Shown: positions 1,667-14,433 of the stretch, piece after piece
Position numbering within the stretch: position 1 is the stretch's first letter
Layout: every line of letters starts with the position of its first letter
NCBI GenBank assembly: GCA_001820675.1
Contig: MHQO01000024.1
Location: 8,457-22,948, forward strand
Direction of reading: 5' to 3'
From: Candidatus Sungbacteria bacterium RIFCSPLOWO2_01_FULL_47_10
GTDB lineage: Bacteria; Patescibacteriota; Minisyncoccia; Sungbacterales; GWA2-42-14
DNA length: 14,492 nt
Notes under the pieces: generated by a model
Seen by the model: only the letters and a program-made list of their open reading frames with translations
Told to the model about the DNA's origin: nothing
Databases searched by the model: none
Program-made: the position numbers and the translations under genes

Positions 1667-3931
1667 ATGTCTCTTGATGGCCCAATTGAAAACGCCACGA
1701 GGATCACACCCGTTAAAAAGCGGGCGCTCTATAAGCTTGGCTTGAGAACGGTGCGGGATATGCTGTATTATTTTCCATTTCGTTACGTCGACTTTGCATG
1801 CGCAAAAAAAATTACCGATCTCGTTGCCGGAGAGCTTGCTTCCGTAATAGGAGAATTGACTCATGTCGATGCGGAAAAAACATGGAAGAAAAAGATGAAT
1901 CTTGCCGAGGGTACCGTTCGCGACGATACCGGCGCGATTTCCGTTGTTTGGTTCAACCAGCCATATATTGCGCGCGTGCTCAAGCCGGGAACCCATATCA
2001 TGGTTTCCGGAAGGGTTTCGATACGAAGAGGGGAAAAATATTTTGCGAATCCGAAATGGGAAATTATTAATAATCCACAACCTTCTGTTTACAACATGCG
2101 GCAGTCGACGCTCGTGCCGGTATATTCGGAGACATACGGAGTTTCGTCGGAGTGGATTCGGTGGCAAATAAAAAAAGTATTGAACGAAATCCGCGACATT
2201 CCCGAATTGATTCCACCCGACATTTTAAAAAAATACCATTTGCCGGGAATACGGCAGGCAATCAGGGCCGCGCATTCTCCGAAAAACCTTGCAGAAGCGG
2301 AAGTCGCAAAAAAAAGGTTTTCGTTCGAAGAAATTTTTTTCATACAGCTCGATCGTCAAAAAGAAAAGAAAAAAAACAAAGAAAACCGCGGGGCGGCGAT
2401 TCGGCCCGACGAATCGCTCGTCCGAGAATTCAAAACGTCACTTCCGTTTTCACTTACATCCGCTCAGGAGCGGGTTTTGCAAAATATTTTCGAGGATTTT
2501 GAAAAGCCGTATCCGATGTCGCGTCTTCTTGAGGGGGATGTCGGGTCCGGCAAGACCGTTATTGCGGCTTTTGCCGCGCTTGCCGCGGTTAAAAGCGGGT
2601 ACCAGGCGGCACTCATGGCGCCGACAGAAATCTTGGCCCGCCAGCATTTTGAAGAGTTCATGCGGCGACTCAAGGGGTTTCGCATCTCCGTCGCGCTTCT
2701 TACTTCGGCTGAATCAAAAAAATTTCCCTCAAAAATCTCGTTCCAAAAGACCGCGGATATTTCGAAAAACCAGCTTTTGAAATATGTCGCATCCGGCGAT
2801 ATACAGATTCTCATCGGAACCCACGCGCTTATTCAAGACAGGGTGCGGTTTAAAAAACTCGGATTTGTCGTTATTGACGAACAGCACCGTTTCGGAACAG
2901 AACAGCGTGCGCGACTTGCAAAAAAGAAAAAGGAAATCGAGAGCCATCGCGATTCGCTGAAACTTTTGAAAAAATCCCAGATCGGATATATGACTGCCGC
3001 TCCGCACCTCTTATCCATGACCGCAACCCCGATTCCGCGGACGCTGGCCCTTACCGTTCATGGCGACCTCGACCTTTCCGTGCTTGACGAGATGCCTCCT
3101 GGCAGAAAAAAAATTATCACCCATGTCGTATCCCCGAAAGATAGAGAAAAAACATATGAATTTATCCGCAGCGAAATAGAAAAAGGGAGACAGACATTTG
3201 TTGTTTGTCCGCGGATAGAACCAACAACCAACCCCTCGACGCGGCTCGGGGTGAGCAACCAACCCCTCGACGCGGCTCGGGGTGAGCAATCGACAACCAA
3301 TAGTTCCAATTTTACTGATAGGCGGCAACGGCTGAAGTTGAGCGAAATGAAGGCCGTAAAAGAAGAGTTTAAAAAATTAAATGAGCATGTGTTTCCGGAA
3401 TTCAATATTGCGATGCTTCATGGGAAACTAAAACCCAAAGAAAAAGAACATATAATGAACGATTTTAAGTCTGGAAATATCCGCATACTCGTCTCAACGT
3501 CCGTCATCGAAGTCGGCGTAGATGTTCCGAATGCCACAATCATGATGATCGAGGGGGGTGAACGATTCGGACTTGCCCAGCTCCACCAGTTTCGAGGAAG
3601 AGTCGGAAGAGGAGAACATCAATCATACTGTTTTGTTTTTACTGACAAAACAACGGCAAAAATTCAGGACCGGTTAAAAGCGCTACAAGAGTCGAAAAAC
3701 GGTTTTGAACTTGCGGAATACGATCTGATGTTTCGGGGGCCCGGCGAGCTTTCGGGAAAGAACCAGTGGGGCATGACGGATACGGGAATGGATGCGTTAA
3801 AAAACATTAAAATGGTCGAGGCCGCGCGCGCTGAAGCCGAACGCATGATCGGAGAAGACCCCGAATTAAAAAAGTACCCGCTTCTGAAAAAACGGGTTGA
3901 GGAACTATCTCAGAAAATTCATTTTGAATAA
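1667..3931 (+). CDS. recG: ATP-dependent DNA helicase RecG
   Basis: RecG remodels stalled replication forks and branched DNA in the cytoplasm, using ATP. The protein is 754 residues, longer than the roughly 690 usual in the family. Seen in order: an N-terminal wedge/OB region with VSGRVSIRRGEKYF (113-126), Walker A GDVGSGKT (290-297), the diagnostic DEQHRFG box (404-410), SMTATPIPRTLALTVHGDLD (motif III region, 450-469), STSVIEVGVDVPNA, QFRGRVGRGEH (motif VI), and the C-terminal FRGPGELSGKNQWG hook. Two insertions explain the extra length: a Lys-rich stretch around residues 419-437, and residues about 519-549, which are encoded by a tandem palindromic repeat plus a Ser/Thr/Asn-rich tail and replace the short linker after FVVCPRIE. 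The reading frame stays intact. No ribosome-binding site is seen before the ATG. Confidence 0.97.
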   Translation: MSLDGPIENATRITPVKKRALYKLGLRTVRDMLYYFPFRYVDFACAKKITDLVAGELASVIGELTHVDAEKTWKKKMNLAEGTVRDDTGAISVVWFNQPYIARVLKPGTHIMVSGRVSIRRGEKYFANPKWEIINNPQPSVYNMRQSTLVPVYSETYGVSSEWIRWQIKKVLNEIRDIPELIPPDILKKYHLPGIRQAIRAAHSPKNLAEAEVAKKRFSFEEIFFIQLDRQKEKKKNKENRGAAIRPDESLVREFKTSLPFSLTSAQERVLQNIFEDFEKPYPMSRLLEGDVGSGKTVIAAFAALAAVKSGYQAALMAPTEILARQHFEEFMRRLKGFRISVALLTSAESKKFPSKISFQKTADISKNQLLKYVASGDIQILIGTHALIQDRVRFKKLGFVVIDEQHRFGTEQRARLAKKKKEIESHRDSLKLLKKSQIGYMTAAPHLLSMTATPIPRTLALTVHGDLDLSVLDEMPPGRKKIITHVVSPKDREKTYEFIRSEIEKGRQTFVVCPRIEPTTNPSTRLGVSNQPLDAARGEQSTTNSSNFTDRRQRLKLSEMKAVKEEFKKLNEHVFPEFNIAMLHGKLKPKEKEHIMNDFKSGNIRILVSTSVIEVGVDVPNATIMMIEGGERFGLAQLHQFRGRVGRGEHQSYCFVFTDKTTAKIQDRLKALQESKNGFELAEYDLMFRGPGELSGKNQWGMTDTGMDALKNIKMVEAARAEAERMIGEDPELKKYPLLKKRVEELSQKIHFE
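3226..3287 (+). repeat. Two tandem copies of a 31-bp palindromic repeat inside recG
   Basis: The unit, with core CCCCTCGACGCGGCTCGGGG, occurs at 3226-3256 and again identically at 3257-3287. The core is an imperfect palindrome with CCCC/GGGG ends. It resembles the dispersed REP-like palindromes of many bacteria whose translation reads HPELVEG; here the minus strand reads AHPEPRRGV. The period of 31 is not a multiple of three, so the two copies are read in different frames (NPSTRLGVSNQ, then PLDAARGEQ), yet neither introduces a stop and the helicase frame is restored afterwards. Confidence 0.85.
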
Positions 3932-5007: not shown

Positions 5008-6570
5008 TTATTTCCTAAATTTCGGCGTTACCCAGAATCCCATATACTTTCCGAACATGAGGCGGCTTTGGGCGTCCAATCCCGGGATTGCGCCGAATAT
5101 AACAATAGTAAGCGGAACGAGAATCCACTGGAGAACCATCCAAAAATATTTTCTTACGGAGTGCCCAGACGGACGCGGCGGAAGAAGCATTGTTGATATG
5201 ATTGCGGACGTAACGAGCCCAAACATTGCAAGGGTCATGATGATCCTCGTTACCGAAGGGAGGTTATGTGCAAGCACGGAGGAACCGAATTCTTTTCCGC
5301 CGATCATTGGAGGAAGCCAGCCGAGAAGAAAAATCAAAAACGGATTTGTTGCCCACGCCCAAAACCCTTCAAGCTGGTTGAATGCAAAAAACATTTTTTT
5401 TCTCAAAGAAATTTTTTTGTTTTTTACAAAACCGAACAGAAGGTACGGGATATTTTCCACGCCCCACCCCCATCGTCTTTGCTGGCGGTAGACATTTATC
5501 GCTGTTTTTAAAAAAGTGGGCGCAATGTTCGCATCCATCGATATCGGGTAAAAGAGCGGTACGGTCCGATAGTCTCCGTCATACCACAAAAGCGCCTGCC
5601 AGAATATGCGGGAATCTTCCGACACGATGTTTGTGTGCCAATAATTCATATCAACAAGGGCGGCCATGCTTACGGAGTGAGACGAAAAAGTCGCAAGCCG
5701 TTCGGGCCGCGCCTGCTGCATCATCTGCCAGAAGGTTCCGGATGAGGCGACAACGCGGGAAAATGCGGGCGCCTCCCATATGTTGTTGTTATACACGGGG
5801 ATGGGCTGGAAAGAAGAACGGAGCGGGCGATCTGCCGTGAGATAGTGATAGGTAAGACATGAAAAATATGCGGGGTAGACGCGCGAATCAACATCAAACG
5901 ACGAAACGAGTATCTCGTGATACGGTATTCCGAGCGGGTCGATAACTTCTTTTTTTGCATTTTTTACCGCCCATGTCTCGTTTGATCCCTTTCCGGGAAG
6001 TTCGCCTCCAATTGAACCGGGATGGATACTTATGAGAAAGGCGAAGAAATTATTTTCAAATTCTTCCTTGAGTTTTTTCGCAACGCGTAACGCCTCGTCA
6101 CCCGCTCGTTCTTCAACCCCCAAAACCAGGATGAAATTTTTTTGTCCGGCACTATCGCTCTTCGCAATTGCCGCGATGGAATCCCGCAGGACATCGATCG
6201 GTTCTTTGAAAAAAGGAAGAATGACCAGGTGGCGGATGTCCGACCAGTGCCGGACGCGTACCTGAAAATCTTCGGCCGGTAGCATCTCAAGTTTTTTTAT
6301 CCAATTTTCGCGCATTCTCCGTTTCATCTCTTTGTGCGTTGCGCGAAGATGTATCGACAAAAAGCCGGTTTTAATAAGCCAATATATATCAAATGCGATA
6401 ATGAATATACTTGCCGCAACCGGGAGAAATCGCGCAAGCGCAATGGTGCCAAGAATCGTTGTCCACGCAATGAATCCCGGAAGAATTTCAAAAAAACGGT
6501 AGAGCGCCCGATCATGTGGCCCGGCGATATCGGATGCCCGCCCCGCTTTGATGTAGTGGTTCCCTTCCAT
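5008..6570 (-). CDS. Membrane GT2 glycosyltransferase, cellulose-synthase-like
   Basis: A 520-residue integral membrane family 2 glycosyltransferase. Two hydrophobic segments near the N-terminus (about 33-72) precede a large cytoplasmic GT-A domain. About three more follow (about 409-424, 441-464 and 475-497), the usual processive layout. Catalytic signatures are visible: DVDSR (226-230, the metal/sugar-nucleotide DxD), SEDSR (317-321, the base-carrying ED), and RQQRRW (362-367, the QxxRW-type acceptor motif). It would polymerise or transfer sugars onto a surface glycan; donor and product cannot be read. It is the first gene of a leftward unit with the dsbA-like gene. No Shine-Dalgarno is seen. 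A strong promoter ends 6 nt before the ATG, and no other start codon lies before residue 82, so a leaderless message is likely. Confidence 0.88.
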   Translation of the reverse strand: MEGNHYIKAGRASDIAGPHDRALYRFFEILPGFIAWTTILGTIALARFLPVAASIFIIAFDIYWLIKTGFLSIHLRATHKEMKRRMRENWIKKLEMLPAEDFQVRVRHWSDIRHLVILPFFKEPIDVLRDSIAAIAKSDSAGQKNFILVLGVEERAGDEALRVAKKLKEEFENNFFAFLISIHPGSIGGELPGKGSNETWAVKNAKKEVIDPLGIPYHEILVSSFDVDSRVYPAYFSCLTYHYLTADRPLRSSFQPIPVYNNNIWEAPAFSRVVASSGTFWQMMQQARPERLATFSSHSVSMAALVDMNYWHTNIVSEDSRIFWQALLWYDGDYRTVPLFYPISMDANIAPTFLKTAINVYRQQRRWGWGVENIPYLLFGFVKNKKISLRKKMFFAFNQLEGFWAWATNPFLIFLLGWLPPMIGGKEFGSSVLAHNLPSVTRIIMTLAMFGLVTSAIISTMLLPPRPSGHSVRKYFWMVLQWILVPLTIVIFGAIPGLDAQSRLMFGKYMGFWVTPKFRK

Positions 6571-6640: not shown

Positions 6641-6671
6641 AAAAAACCGCACGGCTATGAATACCGTACGG
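6641..6671 (-). terminator. Rho-independent terminator of the PafA-type gene
   Basis: On the minus strand CCGTACGG (6671-6664) pairs with CCGTGCGG (6654-6647; one G-T wobble) across a 9-nt loop and is followed by six T residues. The 5' arm lies inside the last codons of the PafA-type gene and the loop contains its stop codon. Confidence 0.85.
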
Positions 6672-8307
6672 CGTCGAGTTTGCTTTTCAGGTCCGCGGTC
6701 ATTTCACACCACGGGTCGTCATTTTTAAACAGGGTATCACTATCCTGCTCGCGCTGTCGAAACCGGCATATGGACCAATCAATCCCTATACTGAAGACGG
6801 GCTCAATTCGGTTTATTGTTTCAGCAAACTCAATGAATGCTCCCCTCCATCGGCCTCTGCCTTCGGGGGGATACCACCACGCAGTTTCGATGTCGGCATC
6901 GGTAAAAAATTCGTTCGCGAGAAACGGCAGTCTGGTTGAAAATTTTTTTCGCTCCTCGCGGCAAAGAGAGGTGTTCTGGAATTTCGCATACACGCTTTCG
7001 CGCCGGAGCACGCGGTGATACATCAGGTCAAGTGATTTTAGCCGATCGAACGGAATCTCAAGGAATTTTTTTCTCTCCGAAGAAGATCTGTCATGTGCGG
7101 GTTTTTTGAATGAAAGACCGGTTTCCTGGATAATGGTATCGAAAAGACAAAGCTTGGCGAAATTATCAAGAAACGGGGCAAGGAGGGCTATGTCGGACCG
7201 CTCGATTGCGTCGAGAACCGCCTGCCAAAACGCGATAGCGTTGCGGATTTCCTGGGTTGCTTCGCGCCGTTCTTCCACAAGATAGTAGCGTTGAACGAGG
7301 TCAAGATAAAATCGTTGGAGAGAAACTGCCGTGTGGAGCTTCGGTCCCATGAAGAAGGGGGTTGAAAACGTGGTGTCTTTGCAGATATCCCGGAGGAGCG
7401 TGATTGGGTTGTTCGGCGGCGAAAAATCCAATCCTTCGAGAAACATTTCATCTTCGACAAGATCAAGCACCAGCGATGTTGCGGCAAGTTTCAGCCACTG
7501 CGCCCAGGGCGACATGTTTGCGTCTCCGATGATGATATGAAGCCGTCGAAGAAGATCGCCTGCGGCATGCGGCTCATCCCGCGTGTTGATAAGTGGGCGG
7601 TTTGAGGTTGTTCCGCTCGACATGGTTAGCTGCATGACCAGCGGGCGCTGGGCAAGACAGAGTGAGGGACCTGTTTTGTTATTTGTGATGAGCCATCCGG
7701 AACCTCCGTACAATTGCCGTGTGATGAAAAACGGTATCATGACTTTTTCGATTTTCGCAAGCTCGATCCGGGAAGGAATCGAATAGTTTTCGTGGAAACC
7801 CCACGAGACATAATCGGGCGTAGTCGGGAGAGTCTCAAGCGTCATGTTGTTGCGAAAGATTCTGACGGGAAAATATTTTTTGTTCAGTTTCTCGGCGAAT
7901 GCGTCCCGGTATGCGTCAAATGCGGGATCGGAGAGATATTCGCGCGCAAGATCCTGATTGCGCATGCACGCGTTGAGAAACTCTTCCGCCTGTTCCATCA
8001 TGTATTGCCCCGCGCGTTCATATATCACGGCCGTTCGGGCGCTTTGACATTCGGGTGTTGCGTATTCCGGATGGAAGCCGGTGTCGATATATACCCTGCC
8101 GCCGTTATAGAGAAAACCGGTGTAGTTTGGACGCGCAAGCGATGGGCGTGGAAATGTTTCAAGAAAAATATGGAAATTGCTGATATATGTCGGGGCCGCT
8201 TTCGGGTCCAAAAACATATTCTGCATTCCGGAAAAAAGCGCATATTCGGTTTCGGTTCCTATGATTCGAGGTTTTATATCTTTTCGGTCCGACGGCGGCT
8301 TGGCCAT
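6655..8307 (-). CDS. pafA: PafA-type Pup/UBact ligase homologue
   Basis: A member of the Pup ligase/depupylase family (glutamine-synthetase-like carboxylate-amine ligase fold), here 550 residues against about 450-480 usual for PafA. PafA uses ATP to join the C-terminal Glu of the small modifier Pup to a lysine of a target protein. Visible: the ATP/metal motif GTETEY (17-22), NGGRVYIDTGFHPEYATPE (68-86) with the catalytic Asp75, GFHENYS (170-176), and NTRDEPHA (241-248) followed by RRLHIIIGDANMS. Three residues separate Asp75 from HPEY, as in PafA; Dop has two. The C-terminal PPEGRGRWRG and IDW segment also matches the PafA C-domain. I chose the ATG at 8307 because GGGGTG precedes it; a TTG at 8331 is the alternative. 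No proteasome subunit gene is nearby. Confidence 0.83.
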   Translation of the reverse strand: MAKPPSDRKDIKPRIIGTETEYALFSGMQNMFLDPKAAPTYISNFHIFLETFPRPSLARPNYTGFLYNGGRVYIDTGFHPEYATPECQSARTAVIYERAGQYMMEQAEEFLNACMRNQDLAREYLSDPAFDAYRDAFAEKLNKKYFPVRIFRNNMTLETLPTTPDYVSWGFHENYSIPSRIELAKIEKVMIPFFITRQLYGGSGWLITNNKTGPSLCLAQRPLVMQLTMSSGTTSNRPLINTRDEPHAAGDLLRRLHIIIGDANMSPWAQWLKLAATSLVLDLVEDEMFLEGLDFSPPNNPITLLRDICKDTTFSTPFFMGPKLHTAVSLQRFYLDLVQRYYLVEERREATQEIRNAIAFWQAVLDAIERSDIALLAPFLDNFAKLCLFDTIIQETGLSFKKPAHDRSSSERKKFLEIPFDRLKSLDLMYHRVLRRESVYAKFQNTSLCREERKKFSTRLPFLANEFFTDADIETAWWYPPEGRGRWRGAFIEFAETINRIEPVFSIGIDWSICRFRQREQDSDTLFKNDDPWCEMTADLKSKLDAVRYS

Positions 8308-8315
8308 GCTGAATA

Positions 8316-8321
8316 CACCCC
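8316..8321 (-). promoter_or_regulatory. Ribosome-binding site deciding the PafA-type start
   Basis: GGGGTG ends 8 nt before the ATG at 8307. The alternative TTG at 8331 has no such site, but its first two bases overlap the stop of the small reading frame 8328-8480 (TTGA). Confidence 0.55.
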
Positions 8322-8327
8322 GTTTTT

Positions 8328-8480
8328 TCAATGTGAATGTGCTGATTCAAGCGTATCAACGTTGACGGGAAATAGCAAAACATCTTGAATGACACAATTC
8401 AGTTTCTGCGTTTGTTTGCGCAACAATCTGTGATTATCCACAAAGTCCTGACGCAGATTTGTAAGAATAGTTTCGCACAT
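8328..8480 (-). CDS. Possible 50-residue protein between the Dop-type and PafA-type genes
   Basis: An open frame begins at ATG 8480 and ends in TGA, reading MCETILTNLRQDFVDNHRLL at the N-terminus and VDTLESAHSH at the C-terminus. The middle is predicted helical and basic (RLLRKQTQKLN), and there are two cysteines. It sits where actinobacterial genomes keep pup, between dop and pafA, and its stop overlaps the alternative TTG start of the PafA-type gene (TTGA), as in coupled genes. Against it: it lacks the Gly-Gly-Glu/Gln (Pup) or Arg-Thr/Ser-Gly-Glu/Gln (UBact) C-terminus, it has no ribosome-binding site, and a candidate pafA promoter lies inside it. It may be a real small partner, a divergent modifier, or chance. 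Confidence 0.3.
   Translation of the reverse strand: MCETILTNLRQDFVDNHRLLRKQTQKLNCVIQDVLLFPVNVDTLESAHSH
8350..8378 (-). promoter_or_regulatory. Candidate promoter of the PafA-type gene
   Basis: On the minus strand TTGCTA (8378-8373) is followed after 17 nt by TACGCT (8355-8350), with a TGA just before it giving an extended -10. The start site would lie about 36 nt before the ATG at 8307. The preceding gene is closed by its own terminator, so a separate promoter is expected here. Confidence 0.45.
8434..8442 (+). other. Perfect DnaA-box sequence
   Basis: TTATCCACA matches the DnaA-box consensus exactly, in the gap between the Dop-type and PafA-type genes. It is a single copy with no cluster around it, so an origin is not indicated. 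It is about 60 nt upstream of the candidate pafA promoter and may be chance. Confidence 0.25.
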
Positions 8481-8520
8481 GAATGCAAAATATTTGTGGT
8501 TGAGAGGCGAGGGGAGGATA

Positions 8521-8545
8521 ACAAAAAAGTCCCGCTAAGGACTTT
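8521..8545 (-). terminator. Rho-independent terminator of the Dop-type gene
   Basis: On the minus strand AAAGTCC (8545-8539) pairs with GGACTTT (8532-8526) across a 6-nt loop, and the T run continues to 8523. It lies 13 nt after the Dop-type stop and separates it from the PafA-type gene. Confidence 0.85.
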
Positions 8546-8558
8546 GGTGGTATTGTGG

Positions 8559-10328
8559 TTAGGAATGCAATGCGTCGGAACTTGTATCAATCGGGAAAAA
8601 TTCGTTCAACCACGCATCGCATCGCAAGATTTCCGACTCAAGCGTTTCGTCTCCGAATGGTTCGTGCGCAGTAAATTTGGCAATAAGCGAGTTGTTGGCC
8701 GCACAGAGGCCCTCAATGTACTCCCATTGAAAAACATTCGCGCGATATCCCCGTTTGCGCAATTCCATCCTCGCGTATTCCCGAAGAAGCGCTCGTGTCC
8801 ACGGCGGATAGCGTATCGCTTGTTTGATTTCGGTTTCTGTGAAAAGCCGCTTGATTTTACCCGCTCGCGCGAGTTTCCAATAAACACTTTTCTTTTTATC
8901 GATATTCGCATACTGTATTGACGCCGCGGTGAGGATACTTCCCAGGGTTTCTTCTTTTCCGTTTTTTCTTCGGACTTTTTGGTTCCAAAGAGATGGGTGC
9001 GTAAGGCCGTGTCGTTCGATTGCGTCGGGGTCGACTCCGTACCGTCGGATACCTGTTTGTTTGAGCATGTCGTATTTTACAACCCACTCGATGTACCTGC
9101 CCCGTTCGGGATCATTTTGAGAAATGAGGTTTAACACGAATCTCCAGTTTTTTAAAATTTCTTTTTCCCAGGCATGAGGATTTCTAAACGTGAGAAAATA
9201 CTCCTCCGCCCGCTTGAGGAATTCGTATTGGATCTCACACACCGTGAGATTTCTCGGCTCGCCCCCGATGCACATCGGAATGGTGATATGGGGGTCGGAA
9301 AGAAAAAGGCGCGAGATATCTTTGAAACAGCCAATCGTTTTTATATCTTCAGCGAATAATTCCGCCTGTTTCCGGTACTTCGGGCCGCGGTTCCATGCGA
9401 AGATGAGATATTCGTCAAGCCAGCCGTCCTCAATCATGGAAAGAACGATTGATGTCGTCCCGAGCGAAAGGTATGTCGCGAATTCCGACATAAGCGCATC
9501 CCCGGAACAAACTTGAATGCGGAAATATTTTTCGTGCGACGCAAGGGGTTCATCGCGAAGAGAAACGCATGGCTTGCTTTCCATCATTGACATGTTGACT
9601 ATTTTTTTAAGAGCCATTGCCCTTTGTGAAAGAATATAGCGCCAGTGCGGCTTTTCTCCGAAATTCCAAAAACCGCCCGATCCGGAAAAAATTTGCCGTG
9701 TTGCAAGAAAAGGAATGAGATTTATGCGGATATTATCCCACCCGGCCATGTATGGAAGGAGAAGCTTGTTTCGGTCGCAGAGATAATTCTCGTGAACTCC
9801 GTATGAATGCCCCATAGTATCGCACGAGTCTTTAAATATACTAATAGGGTCAGGTCCTTCATGTTCGGGCGGTCCGGACGTGTTCTCAAAATATTTTTGC
9901 CGAATCGCGTGTACTATCTCTTCCCTACTGCTTCCCGAAATTCTCTGGTTCAGACCGCGGAGAACAATCTCAAAAAGATATTCCCCTGCTTTTATATACA
10001 GTGCGGCATTTCTCGGGTCGCCGGTTTCCGGTGTTGCATATTCCGGATGGCTCAAATCCGGATATATCCGTGAACCATTCACATGCCATACCGAAATATT
10101 GGGCGACATCCATGGAAATTCAAATTTATCGGACACAAAAGGGGCTGGTCGTTCCAGGGCGTATTTAAGATAATTGGTAAACAATAATGTGGCTTGATAC
10201 GCGGGGGTGTCTTGAGCATACTGATTTTGCCTTTCTATGCCCATGAGACGGAAAAAGGAAGGCCAGTGGATTCCATATTCATTTTCAACGCCGATGACGG
10301 TTTTCCTCGGTTCTTTGTCGGGGGGCAT
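8559..10328 (-). CDS. dop: Dop-type deamidase/depupylase homologue
   Basis: The second Pup ligase/depupylase-family protein, 589 residues (Dop is usually about 500). Dop deamidates the C-terminal Gln of Pup and removes Pup from substrates. Visible: GVENEYGIH (13-21), a long segment before NGSRIYPDLSHPEYATPE (84-101) with the catalytic Asp91, GVHENYL (177-183), and RDEP (258-261). Only two residues lie between Asp91 and HPEY, the Dop spacing. Departures from the family: SLRDEPLA replaces NTRDEPHA, and CSGDALMS replaces the usual IIGDANLx. The start at 10328 is chosen because GGAAG precedes it and the protein then begins 12 residues before GVENEY as in relatives; an in-frame ATG at 10409 would add 27 residues with no family counterpart. 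It has its own promoter, attenuator-like leader and terminator. Confidence 0.8.
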   Translation of the reverse strand: MPPDKEPRKTVIGVENEYGIHWPSFFRLMGIERQNQYAQDTPAYQATLLFTNYLKYALERPAPFVSDKFEFPWMSPNISVWHVNGSRIYPDLSHPEYATPETGDPRNAALYIKAGEYLFEIVLRGLNQRISGSSREEIVHAIRQKYFENTSGPPEHEGPDPISIFKDSCDTMGHSYGVHENYLCDRNKLLLPYMAGWDNIRINLIPFLATRQIFSGSGGFWNFGEKPHWRYILSQRAMALKKIVNMSMMESKPCVSLRDEPLASHEKYFRIQVCSGDALMSEFATYLSLGTTSIVLSMIEDGWLDEYLIFAWNRGPKYRKQAELFAEDIKTIGCFKDISRLFLSDPHITIPMCIGGEPRNLTVCEIQYEFLKRAEEYFLTFRNPHAWEKEILKNWRFVLNLISQNDPERGRYIEWVVKYDMLKQTGIRRYGVDPDAIERHGLTHPSLWNQKVRRKNGKEETLGSILTAASIQYANIDKKKSVYWKLARAGKIKRLFTETEIKQAIRYPPWTRALLREYARMELRKRGYRANVFQWEYIEGLCAANNSLIAKFTAHEPFGDETLESEILRCDAWLNEFFPIDTSSDALHS

Positions 10329-10335
10329 GGGAATT

Positions 10336-10340
10336 CTTCC
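10336..10340 (-). promoter_or_regulatory. Ribosome-binding site deciding the Dop-type start
   Basis: GGAAG lies 7 nt before the ATG at 10328. The longer in-frame start at 10409 has only a weak GAG nearby and sits 13 nt after the terminator T run. Confidence 0.6.
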
Positions 10341-10422
10341 GGTTGTCAAAAAACGCCTGTATTCATGCGTACCATGATTTGAACGCGGATGCAAAAAATC
10401 ATACGGCATGTTTTCTCAAAAT

Positions 10423-11076: not shown

Positions 11077-13587
11077 ATGCAATTGATTATGGAACTCCTA
11101 CGAAATATTGACCAAACAAGTAAAAACGATGTCGCGCTTGCCGGTGGTAAAGGAGCTTCGCTTGGTGAGATGACACAAGCTGGTCTTTCAGTACCACCTG
11201 GTTTTGTAATCCTCTCAAGTGCTTTTGAAAAGTTTTTGGAAGAAACCGATCTGAATGTTGAAATTGAGGCAATTCTTGATTCAGTCAATCACAAAGAAAT
11301 GCACACTGTTGAAAATGCGTCGGAGAAAATCCAGGCGCTTATTCTGGAAGCTGAAATGCCAAAAGATTTAGCTCAAAAGATAGAAAAGTTTTTCAAAAAT
11401 CTAGGCGCAAAACATGTAGCAGTCAGATCATCGGCTACCGTCGAAGATTCAGCAAGCGCGGCATGGGCTGGTCAGCTTGAAAGTTATCTCAATACGACAG
11501 AAGAAAGTTTGCTTGAAAATATAAAGAAATGTTGGGCTTCTCTATTCACGCCGCGCGCTATTTTTTATCGTTTCGAAAAAGATTTGCACAAACAAAAAAT
11601 ATCCGTCGCGGTTGTTGTGCAAAAAATGGTTGACAGCGAAAAATCAGGTATTGCTTTTTCCGTTCATCCGGTAACGCAAGATAAAAACCAGTTAATCATT
11701 GAAGCGGGCTTTGGACTTGGCGAAGCAATCGTTTCTGGACAAATTACACCGGATAGTTATGTGGTAGAAAAACAACCGCGACGGATTATTGATAAAAATG
11801 TTCAGCTACAATCACGCGGGCTTTATCGTGCAGAAAAAGCCGGAAACGAATGGCGCGATATTCCAAAAGAGCGAGGAGAAAAACAGGTTTTATCTGATAA
11901 GGAAATTTTTGAACTTTCCGAAATTATACTCCATATTGAAAATCATTACGGTTTTCCCTGCGATGTTGAATGGGCTTTTGAACAGGGAAAGTTTTATATT
12001 GTCCAAAGTAGACCTATTACTACCCTCGATACTACGAGCAAAGCGAGCAAGGTAAGCGCGGAGTATTTTATAACAACACAATATAAAGGTTCGCCTCCAC
12101 TCTACCTTGCTGATTTGTATATTAACGAAGCACAAAGAAGATTTTTTCATAATTTGATCGGCTACTTTTTCGCCATCCTGCACATTTCCTTAATGAAAGA
12201 CGGGGCAACCAACTATGTGGCAATCCAAGATGAAAATGCCGTTGGATTAGATGAAAATTATGGTTATAAATTCTGGCAAAAAGAAGATAATTATAAAAGA
12301 TATATTCTTGAAATCAAAAAAATAATCTCCGAAACGCATACTTTGTACAAGAAATACGAGCAAGAGTATAAAGGAAAAGAAAGCGGTGTTTTTCTCAAAG
12401 AACCAAAAAATATTGCCGAGTTTCTTTCTCAGATAGTTTCTCTAAATGCTAGGGCTGCCGCGCTTCACTTTGCAACAGAAGAAAAATTACTCGAAAGTAT
12501 CCAGCGCGACTTACTCAATGAAAATATAGACAATAGTCTCCTTGCGGAATACCTTGGTGTTGCCGACCACATAATTACAGCCACCGATATTGATAACAGA
12601 ATCAACATATTGATTCTGGACGCGCAAAGAGACAAATCACTAGCCACTTATTTTGATAAAAATCCCACTGCAAGGAAAAATATAGAAGAAATGATTGATG
12701 AGCATGGATACATCAATTGGACTCTTTTGGGTGGCGAAATTATATCTATTGATACTATCGCAAAGCTTTATAATCAGTCGAAACAAGACAAAAAATATCT
12801 TGAACATTTGAAAGATGGTATTGAAAAGTATAAGGAACTTTTGAGTAAAGTTAGCAAAAAACAAAAAGCCTATGAATCTTTACGAGGCAGGGCGCGCTAC
12901 TTATTCGAAGTATTGAGCAATTTGCCATATTTCAGATTTGAAAACCAAACAAGAATGTTGATACTGGCAAATATATTTAACCAGTTCAACGCTATGCTCA
13001 TCAGAAATTATAATATTGATGAAAATGACTTTAAGTTTTATAAAATTGAAGATGTTTTTAATCTCTTAACTAAAAGTGTAAAACTGTCGCCGCAAGAAAT
13101 TGATGAGCGAAAATCTGCGTGGTGTTATATGCTTAGTGAAGATGGTGAGAAAATAGAATTTTTAAGTGGCAACGAGGTAATCAAAAACAGGGTCGTCAGC
13201 GACGCTTTGGGGTATCTTCACAACCTCGAAGCTGCTCTTAAAAAATTGAGAGGGACTGTCGGAAGTTTTCCAGACAAGAATCGGAAAATCATTGACGGTG
13301 AAGCATGTGTAGTGTCAGATATGTACAGCCCCGAAGAGGAATTAAAGAAGATGCCGAACGATAAAGTTCTGGTTATAACGCAAACATACCCCAGTTATGT
13401 GCCCTACATGAGAAAAGCACGTGCAATCGTCGCCGACGTAGGAGGTATTACTTCACACGCGGCAATAGTAAGCAGGGAGTTAAAAATTCCTTGCATTGTA
13501 GGAACAAAGCTCGCTACCAAAAAATTAAAGAATGGCGATAATGTGCGGATTAATTTGGAAGACGGCACGATAGAAAAAGTAGAATAA
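11077..13587 (+). CDS. PEP-synthase-like phosphohistidine dikinase with rifampin-phosphotransferase layout
   Basis: An 836-residue member of the PEP-utilising enzyme superfamily. Residues 1-315 are the PPDK N-terminal ATP-grasp domain: GGKGASLGEM (23-32), VRSSATVEDSASA (116-128), GFGLGEAIVSGQITPDSYVV (211-230) and VQSRPITTL (309-317). Residues about 330-740 are helical and match no domain I can name. Residues about 745-836 are the mobile phosphohistidine domain, ADVGGITSHAAIVSRE with His794. The C-terminal PEP/pyruvate barrel of true PEP synthase is absent, so the order matches rifampin phosphotransferase (about 865 residues), which moves the beta-phosphate of ATP via His to a small molecule. 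The substrate is unknown. No clear ribosome-binding site; TATAAA (11053-11058) may be a -10. Met5 is an alternative start. A low-complexity stretch (TSKASK, 320-325) marks the first domain border. Confidence 0.85.
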   Translation: MQLIMELLRNIDQTSKNDVALAGGKGASLGEMTQAGLSVPPGFVILSSAFEKFLEETDLNVEIEAILDSVNHKEMHTVENASEKIQALILEAEMPKDLAQKIEKFFKNLGAKHVAVRSSATVEDSASAAWAGQLESYLNTTEESLLENIKKCWASLFTPRAIFYRFEKDLHKQKISVAVVVQKMVDSEKSGIAFSVHPVTQDKNQLIIEAGFGLGEAIVSGQITPDSYVVEKQPRRIIDKNVQLQSRGLYRAEKAGNEWRDIPKERGEKQVLSDKEIFELSEIILHIENHYGFPCDVEWAFEQGKFYIVQSRPITTLDTTSKASKVSAEYFITTQYKGSPPLYLADLYINEAQRRFFHNLIGYFFAILHISLMKDGATNYVAIQDENAVGLDENYGYKFWQKEDNYKRYILEIKKIISETHTLYKKYEQEYKGKESGVFLKEPKNIAEFLSQIVSLNARAAALHFATEEKLLESIQRDLLNENIDNSLLAEYLGVADHIITATDIDNRINILILDAQRDKSLATYFDKNPTARKNIEEMIDEHGYINWTLLGGEIISIDTIAKLYNQSKQDKKYLEHLKDGIEKYKELLSKVSKKQKAYESLRGRARYLFEVLSNLPYFRFENQTRMLILANIFNQFNAMLIRNYNIDENDFKFYKIEDVFNLLTKSVKLSPQEIDERKSAWCYMLSEDGEKIEFLSGNEVIKNRVVSDALGYLHNLEAALKKLRGTVGSFPDKNRKIIDGEACVVSDMYSPEEELKKMPNDKVLVITQTYPSYVPYMRKARAIVADVGGITSHAAIVSRELKIPCIVGTKLATKKLKNGDNVRINLEDGTIEKVE

Positions 13588-13593
13588 AATTTT

Positions 13594-14433
13594 ATGGAAC
13601 GCTCACAATATCCAGAAAAATATTATCAAAGAGTCGAAAAAATTGCCGAGGAATCGGAGATATTTCAACACCCAGAAAGATTTGTCCAAGTACGAGGCAA
13701 AGAGTTTTCTCTCCAAGAAGAAGGCAATCCGACTGCTCTGATTTTATATATGCGCCACGGAAAGTCAGAATACAAAGAAGACGTGAACGCCGGATTTAAT
13801 CCGGCCACTGATGTTGATTTGACAGAGCAAGGGCAACAAGAAGTACATAGTGGAGCTCAAAAGATTTCCAGCGTTCTAGAGGGTCTTGAGTTGAAGGATG
13901 TACCCGTAACCATGATCACTTCAAATAAAGCCAGAGCAAAAGCATCAGGGCAAATAGTAAGAAAGGATTTAAACGCGGGAGGATTTACATTTTCTGAACC
14001 AGAACAAAAAGTATCTCAAGCTACTGGTGGCGTAAAGACATTTAATAGGTCACCGAAAGAAGTTTTTGAAACCATTGAGTCGTTATGTGATGACAAAGAC
14101 ATTGATAGATACTGGCGGTCGGGAAAATTGCAAGAAGAACATGCGGATTTTAGAGATATTGAATCACCGGAAGAACTTGAGAACCGGATACTCAAAACAT
14201 TCTTACAGAGCGTAGACATATTACGTAAAATGAGCCAGAAAGACAATCGAACAGAAGTCGTTGTTGCTGTTGGTCATGATGAAGTGTTAGGCGCGTTATT
14301 GGCGAAGTTTAAGTTAATAAATTTTGAGAGTAAAGATGGTAGATTGGGATACGGTGAAGTGGCAAAGTTTTACATTCTTAATGATAAAGTCGTTATAGAA
14401 TACGCTGGAAAAAATTACGAATTCAGGATATAA
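13594..14433 (+). CDS. Histidine-phosphatase superfamily (phosphoglycerate-mutase-like) protein
   Basis: A 279-residue branch 1 histidine-phosphatase-fold protein, a family that removes or transfers phosphate through a phosphohistidine. Seen: YMRHGKSEY with the catalytic RHG (His55), the conserved Arg114 in TSNKARAKASG (in place of the usual SPLxRAxxTA), and the second catalytic His228 in VAVGHDEVLG. An N-terminal extension of about 48 residues, charged and helical, is unusual for the family, as is a long insertion (about 140-200) with acidic and aromatic residues that could form the substrate lid. It starts 6 nt after the dikinase stop, so the two are almost certainly one transcript; no Shine-Dalgarno is seen. 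Its substrate may be the product of the dikinase or an unrelated phosphoester. Confidence 0.85.
   Translation: MERSQYPEKYYQRVEKIAEESEIFQHPERFVQVRGKEFSLQEEGNPTALILYMRHGKSEYKEDVNAGFNPATDVDLTEQGQQEVHSGAQKISSVLEGLELKDVPVTMITSNKARAKASGQIVRKDLNAGGFTFSEPEQKVSQATGGVKTFNRSPKEVFETIESLCDDKDIDRYWRSGKLQEEHADFRDIESPEELENRILKTFLQSVDILRKMSQKDNRTEVVVAVGHDEVLGALLAKFKLINFESKDGRLGYGEVAKFYILNDKVVIEYAGKNYEFRI

Follow-up and report, generated by a model that had tools for sequence, protein, structure and literature searches.

The window analysed here, a stretch of 14,492 bases from the draft genome of Candidatus Sungbacteria bacterium RIFCSPLOWO2_01_FULL_47_10 (contig MHQO01000024.1, called C24 here, positions 8457-22948), carries two tandem minus-strand genes of the Pup ligase/depupylase family, at window positions 6655-8331 and 8559-10409. 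The 6655-8331 gene is assigned with high confidence, from sequence comparison, as PafA, the orthologue of the PafA in a relative's complete mpa-dop-pup-pafA cluster. The pair is probably best explained as the PafA of a Pup system with parts encoded elsewhere in the genome, accompanied by a divergent extra paralogue (8559-10409) that would be a second Pup amidase. The system itself is known; what is unusual is its host, the scatter of its genes and the expansion of paralogues, and this pair calls for no new modifier. The host belongs to the Parcubacteria-type Patescibacteria, and its draft genome (G000) comprises 1,097,321 bases in 84 contigs, at a completeness of 87.28%. Comparisons drew on 383 sampled genomes of the class, which is larger than this sample, and, for several counts, on a smaller set of 55 genomes.

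Both products matched the Pup_ligase model PF03136 over nearly its whole length (267 bits for 6655-8331 and 250.7 bits for 8559-10409; cut-off 25), in agreement with the preliminary description of this DNA, made from the letters alone, which had placed two family members in tandem here. The 6655-8331 product (558 aa as listed; the ATG at 8307 is its likely start) contains a full-length domain with the ExE motif, the catalytic Asp and HPEY all present, and scored higher with the NCBIfam PafA model (256.1 bits) than with the Dop model (216.9 bits). The criteria used to distinguish Dop from PafA, namely the alpha-loop and the Dop-loop insert, were taken from the accessible part of PMC7947786. By sequence, the 6655-8331 protein has a PafA-type alpha-loop, MSSGTTSNRP (VMQLTMSSGTTSNRP, compared with VWEGVSSATTRSRP in C. 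glutamicum), and lacks an insert of the size of the Dop-loop (ExE-to-NG distance of 49); its catalytic motif, D83-TGF-HPEY, shows the PafA-type spacing of 3. In a 38-row tree it fell into a clade with full support (100/100) together with one G004 gene and the PafA of G003 (L071:2079-3755), which adjoins a canonical pup in the mpa-dop-pup-pafA cluster of that genome, and this grouping was kept in two later trees. The earlier assignment of the downstream gene as PafA is thus upheld by the orthology with G003, the PafA motifs and the gene position.

The remaining parts of a Pup system were found on other contigs, as expected from the earlier proposal that the pair implied a conjugation system. 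A single Pup was detected in the genome by profile search, on contig C62, with the tail YVQRGGQ (79.2 bits with PF05639; 63.7 bits with TIGR03687, cut-off 41.45). Contig C39 encodes a proteasomal ATPase of the ARC/Mpa type (L006:2064-3902; AAA and OB domains, PF17758 and PF16450; tail GQYL), with a Dop-like gene immediately after it; in two trees this gene grouped with the Mpa-linked Dops of the family. Counting the window pair, this C39 gene and two further tandem genes on C9, the genome holds five PF03136 genes. By homology, the 6655-8331 PafA would phosphorylate the C-terminal glutamate of Pup and attach the tag to lysines on target proteins. The Pup in use is most likely that of C62, which would have to be deamidated first since it ends in Gln. 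The canonical Dop of C39 could perform this deamidation as well as the removal of Pup; pupylated proteins would be unfolded or sorted by the ARC/Mpa ATPase of C39, and the 8559-10409 product may act as an extra Pup amidase.

Within the window itself no modifier was recognised, as had been noted before: a six-frame scan revealed no frame ending in GG[EQ] or [RK][ST]G[EQ], the best tblastn hit of two Pups in the window had an E-value of 6, and neither 20S subunits nor ARC were present among the window proteins scanned (nine against Pfam and eight against NCBIfam, plus two small open reading frames (ORFs) of the window against Pfam). The gap at 8332-8558 lies immediately upstream of pafA, the place in which six relatives (G003, G005, G012, G044, G079, G156) carry pup next to a pafA-type gene; in G001 pup lies downstream of pafA instead. 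No Pup or Pup relic was seen in this gap by six-frame translation or tblastn. The separation of the pair from pup on the window stretch, and the existence of some members of the wider family in genomes in which neither Pup nor UBact was found, could be taken to mean that the pair serves a non-Pup modifier encoded elsewhere. This we regard as very improbable: canonical Pup, ARC and Dop are all encoded in this genome, and the G003 orthologue of 6655-8331 adjoins a canonical pup. As the C62 Pup is available, no new tag is needed for this PafA; of the two options given earlier for the modifier, a location elsewhere in the genome was borne out, and a missing or new type was not supported. The replacement of Pup by UBact was rejected, since none of the 24 class genomes with Pup_ligase genes (this genome and 23 others) matched the UBact model (NF033388, E <= 0.1).

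The 8559-10409 gene (616 aa as listed; the ATG at 10328 is its likely start) is an orphan paralogue, most likely encoding a second, specialised Pup amidase of the deamidase or depupylase type. This reading was drawn from the catalytic spacing, the insert length, the Dop model score, the alpha-loop without a helix and the retained catalytic motifs. The motif D118-LS-HPEY has the Dop-type spacing of 2, so that both spacings reported in the preliminary description were reproduced, and the ExE-to-NG distance of 69 falls within the range of the fully read Dop-group rows (69-112, save one at 46). The protein scored 200.1 bits with the NCBIfam Dop model and 178.1 bits with the PafA model; the same comparison of scores put six control Dops and PafAs in their expected classes and placed the C39 gene with Dop. 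From its sequence and the confidence of an AlphaFold2 model (predicted local distance difference test, pLDDT, 81.4; predicted template modelling score, pTM, 0.87), the protein would have the Dop/PafA fold, and in this model the alpha-loop (residues 269-279; block pLDDT about 78-93) was composed of strand and coil, without a helix. According to the accessible part of PMC7947786, the same region forms a loop in Dop, whereas PafA has a helix there. The ExE, catalytic Asp, HPEY, HENY and RDEP motifs are all retained, and the conserved Arg of RDEP corresponds to R193 of PafA (position by our own count from the table in PMC7947786), whose replacement by Ala is described there as leaving PafA activity undetectable.

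Spacing between the catalytic Asp and HPEY is a useful but imperfect marker of the two classes. It was evaluated in a set of 71 rows, whose labels (Dop, PafA-like, X and C9) were hand-assigned from a tree of 68 of these rows; the three rows shorter than 380 residues, including the C. glutamicum PafA segment, were left out, and the two reference chains entered as aligned segments rather than full-length proteins. The spacing was 2 in 18 of the 20 rows of the Dop group (3 in one; one fragment without a reading), and of the PafA-like rows, 32 in number and including two fragments, 16 had a spacing of 3 and seven a spacing of 2.

Several results weigh against the proposed interpretation. Three of them concern the system as a whole: the 6655-8331 score of 256.1 bits is below the TIGR03686 equivalog cut-off of 551.3; Pup, ARC with Dop, and PafA lie on three contigs, so that we infer their joint working, as we do the enzymatic activities and the role of 8559-10409; and neither PF00227 nor a G005 subunit used as query revealed a 20S subunit in this genome, at a completeness of 87% that may leave 13% missing. 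The equivalog cut-off is a naming threshold rather than a biological criterion; it was passed by the Roku and Nitrospirales PafAs (639.9 and 554.6 bits) and missed by the PafA of the G003 pup cluster (238.4 bits), and both window genes miss their NCBIfam equivalog cut-offs, as do the PafA and the Dop of that cluster. The other results concern 8559-10409. Its alpha-loop reads MSMMESKP, with Met at both Thr positions, and the first of these is Thr in all 20 Dop-group rows. Its insert lacks the WD[PS]xxR stretch of the G000, G001, G003, G005 and G012 Dops. The higher score with the Dop model is a weak marker, as the two C9 proteins also favoured that model (213.9 vs 185.0 and 201.7 vs 199.7 bits) though they fall outside the Dop clade. 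Finally, approximately unbiased (AU) tests, for groups partly picked after the trees had been viewed, rejected the grouping of 8559-10409 with the C39 Dop of its own genome (p = 6e-20), with the Dops of its own family (p = 0.009) and with the actinobacterial, Roku and Nitrospirales Dops (p = 0.026).

The same AU tests rejected none of the three PafA-side groupings tried: with the window PafA clade (0.373), with the X group (0.393), and with the C. glutamicum, Roku and Nitrospirales PafAs (0.124). These values could indicate that 8559-10409 is a PafA-side paralogue, that is, a second or target-specific ligase, in which the Dop-like spacing and the N-terminal insert are convergent. Two more observations point in this direction: in G079 a member of the X group directly precedes pup and two pafA-type genes, and 8559-10409 grouped weakly with the X group in the 68-row tree (Shimodaira-Hasegawa-like approximate likelihood ratio test, SH-aLRT, 92), a grouping absent from two other trees. 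Nevertheless, the Dop-type spacing and length, the lead of 22 bits with the Dop hidden Markov model (HMM) and the alpha-loop modelled without a helix argue against a second ligase, and the terminal branch of 1.6-2.5 across the trees leaves the placement unsure; we consider this explanation unlikely. Loss of activity, the protein being a catalytically weak or inactive Pup-binding regulator or decoy, was also considered. Both alpha-loop Thr residues are replaced by Met and RLH reads RIQ; in PafA, single Thr-to-Ala mutants were considerably slower and the double mutant less active still (PMC7947786, accessible part). However, the ExE, Asp, HPEY, HENY and RDEP motifs are kept, including the Arg whose change left PafA activity undetectable, and other family members likewise carry Met or another residue at the second Thr, Lys for the Arg that precedes Pro, or Gln in place of the His, which makes inactivity improbable. 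The lines of evidence on the class of 8559-10409 conflict, and the gene is, on its sequence, a strongly diverged extra copy. The earlier assignment of this gene as Dop was therefore only partly sustained: spacing, insert length and model preference agree with it, and the AU tests and the presence of another, canonical Dop beside Mpa do not. An additional, amidase-like enzyme is still the reading we prefer.

No orthologue of 8559-10409 was recognised in the 383 class genomes, with up to three candidates scored per genome; the non-self matches were all at 26-39% identity. A recent foreign origin was not supported by codon usage: the GC content at third codon positions (GC3) was 0.502, and the synonymous divergence of 0.03 per codon was the second lowest of 14 genes. 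Among the 50,697 records of a phage collection there was one distant match (28.3% identity over 74% of the query), a Pup_ligase-like stretch at about 42240-43292 of the unannotated record MT835496.1, which also matched at a second place.

The gene order around the pair corresponds to the pafA part of an ancestral mpa-dop-pup-pafA-GT2 locus with a convergent recG; in the genome studied here, mpa and dop are now on C39 and pup on C62. The order mpa, dop and/or pup, a pafA-type gene, GT2 and convergent recG was observed in G012, G044, G054 and G079, and in eight genomes (G012, G021, G044, G054, G066, G079, G119, G156) recG faces the GT2 side of the cluster in convergent orientation. At least two genes separate GT2 from recG in G012, and genes also lie between them in the window. 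An ftsH gene (Peptidase_M41 plus AAA) is located upstream of mpa in G012, G066 and G119, and in G137 by BLAST likeness. The 8559-10409 gene occupies the slot held by dop or pup in relatives, and the X-group gene of G079 stands in this same slot. In the window, recG is located at 1667-3931 on the plus strand (Pfam scan, synteny) and forms the convergent flank; the GT2-like membrane protein, named by eye and without a Pfam or NCBIfam match, is encoded at 5008-6570 on the minus strand and is a class-wide core gene. This context is, as already remarked in the preliminary description, unlike that of actinobacteria. A GT2 gene (E <= 1e-60) was present in 47 of the 55 genomes, including the one studied here; a functional tie between GT2 and PafA was rejected, as it was common both with (11/14) and without (36/41) Pup_ligase genes, and GT2 belongs to the ancestral gene order, not evidently to the conjugation system. 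Elsewhere in the window, the PEP-synthase-like and histidine-phosphatase genes at 11077-14433 have a GC content of 0.38-0.39 and a GC3 of 0.33-0.34 (GC 0.44-0.50 in the other window genes); these AT-richer genes were possibly acquired.

Across the class, PF03136 matches were found in 14 of the 55 genomes and in 24 of the 383 (both counts including the genome studied here), with 5, 2, 4, 7, 3 and 3 Pup_ligase genes in G000 to G005, respectively, and four in G012, whose genome is a single contig. A scan for named relatives with a single protein recovered none; one with an alignment of three sequences yielded 54 loci. Pup matches occurred in seven of the 55 genomes, six of them with Pup_ligase genes; the seventh (G041) was near the cut-off and had none. 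Two further Pups (G079, G156) were detected by their tail, that of G079 being confirmed by model and that of G156 resting on its tail. Among eight Pups the tail was GGQ in two (G000, G079) and GGE in six. PF00227 matched in four of the 55 genomes and, among the six Pup genomes there, in G005 only. No 20S was found with PF00227 or the G005 subunit query in G003, G012 and G044, Pup genomes each rated 100% complete. As a control, PF00227 recognised the better subunit in five of five 20S-like clusters (at least 48.5 bits), the other subunit being below the cut-off in four; this control leaves out G216, which has a 20S match, and more diverged subunits would escape it. Since the better subunit was recognised in every control cluster, the missing matches in these three genomes carry weight, without being proof. 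ATPase tails of the GQYL/GHYL type occurred without 20S found in G000, G003, G012, G044, G054 and G079; G005 has 20S plus a GHYL tail, the G001 ATPase ends in PSYL, and the ATPases of the 20S-bearing clusters of G119, G175 and G249 have no GQYL/GHYL end. Of a pup with proteasome genes elsewhere in this genome, which the preliminary description held would make the system ordinary, Pup and ARC/Mpa were thus found and 20S was not.

Small, highly polar proteins with KSGE or KGGQ tails were observed in Dop/PafA clusters of other genomes (L123:2840-3034, L128:5126-5311 and L121:1459-1698, minus strand; L126:8490-8669, plus strand); three of the four clusters also contain 20S-like genes. None of these proteins matched the NCBIfam Pup or UBact models, with which three UBact controls did match. 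They were chosen by tail and composition, and some may be chance frames; it is possible that they represent unnamed Pup-like modifiers.

The wider surprise is a lineage-specific Pup_ligase clade outside the window, named here after contig C9. On this contig two tandem minus-strand genes (L007, 6312-7760 and 7980-9506; PF03136) encode proteins of 482 and 508 aa, respectively; a single fused gene, suggested by an open frame of 1071 codons, was discarded because four stops separate them. The clade comprises 14 rows and was seen only in the family of this genome and in G012 (relatives in L067-L070, L072, L074, L076, L078 and L080). The RDEP Arg is kept in five of the 14 rows, and genes for S12, S7 and an M50 peptidase stand next to some of the copies in G000, G002, G003 and G004. 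G002 (98% complete) has four copies of the clade, and model searches and trees revealed no Pup, UBact, PafA-group or Dop-group gene in it; a frame of 533 codons there matches the ARC query at 36%. No conserved small modifier was recognised by eye beside the C9-clade genes, among ORFs of at least 25 aa in stretches of ten loci. A new modifier for this clade is possible. A broader scenario, in which the Dop/PafA fold radiated in these Parcubacteria to act on non-Pup targets and 8559-10409 is a cluster-resident member with its own modifier or target, would account for such copies; we hold it only tentatively, as a doubtful alternative to the amidase reading.

The system resembles corynebacterial pupylation in having Pup together with PafA, Dop and a proteasomal ATPase; searches for 20S in this genome, 87% complete, gave no match. 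According to the accessible part of PMC3511204, corynebacteria have retained pupylation genes but no 20S, and the C-terminal motif is missing from the ATPases of organisms that lack 20S genes. Unlike corynebacteria, the genome described here has these genes spread over at least three contigs, an ATPase that keeps GQYL, five Pup_ligase genes and a non-actinobacterial host. Extra diverged pupylation enzymes within one genome are also known from the L1 and L2 loci of Leptospirillum ferrooxidans (PMC3511204, same part), where whole loci were multiplied; here single ligase-family genes were, and one Pup was found. The 8559-10409 protein is roughly equidistant from Dop and PafA (31.5% identity to the 4b0r segment and 30.0% to the 4b0t segment), like the single Dop/PafA homologues of Planctomycetes (29-31% identity to Dop and PafA in the accessible part of PMC7947786), a likeness drawn from published identities; unlike these, it shares its genome with a canonical Dop and PafA. 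UBact systems (named in the accessible part of PMC11354881) use the same enzyme family in a similar cluster layout, and the model NF033388 matched in Poribacteria, S1 and Fraserbacteria loci, in contrast to the class genomes considered above. We found no paper joining pupylation with Patescibacteria, or Parcubacteria with proteasome and Pup, in a search that mostly did not extend to subscription journals.

These results locate the components of a pupylation system in small genomes of the Patescibacteria type. A genome of this set can hold as many as seven Pup_ligase genes, and the bacteria thereby offer a natural setting in which to test how one fold may give rise to Dop, PafA and further activities. 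Genomes rated 100% complete that encode Pup and an ATPase ending in GQYL or GHYL, with no 20S found, would in turn allow the docking partner of this ATPase to be tested.

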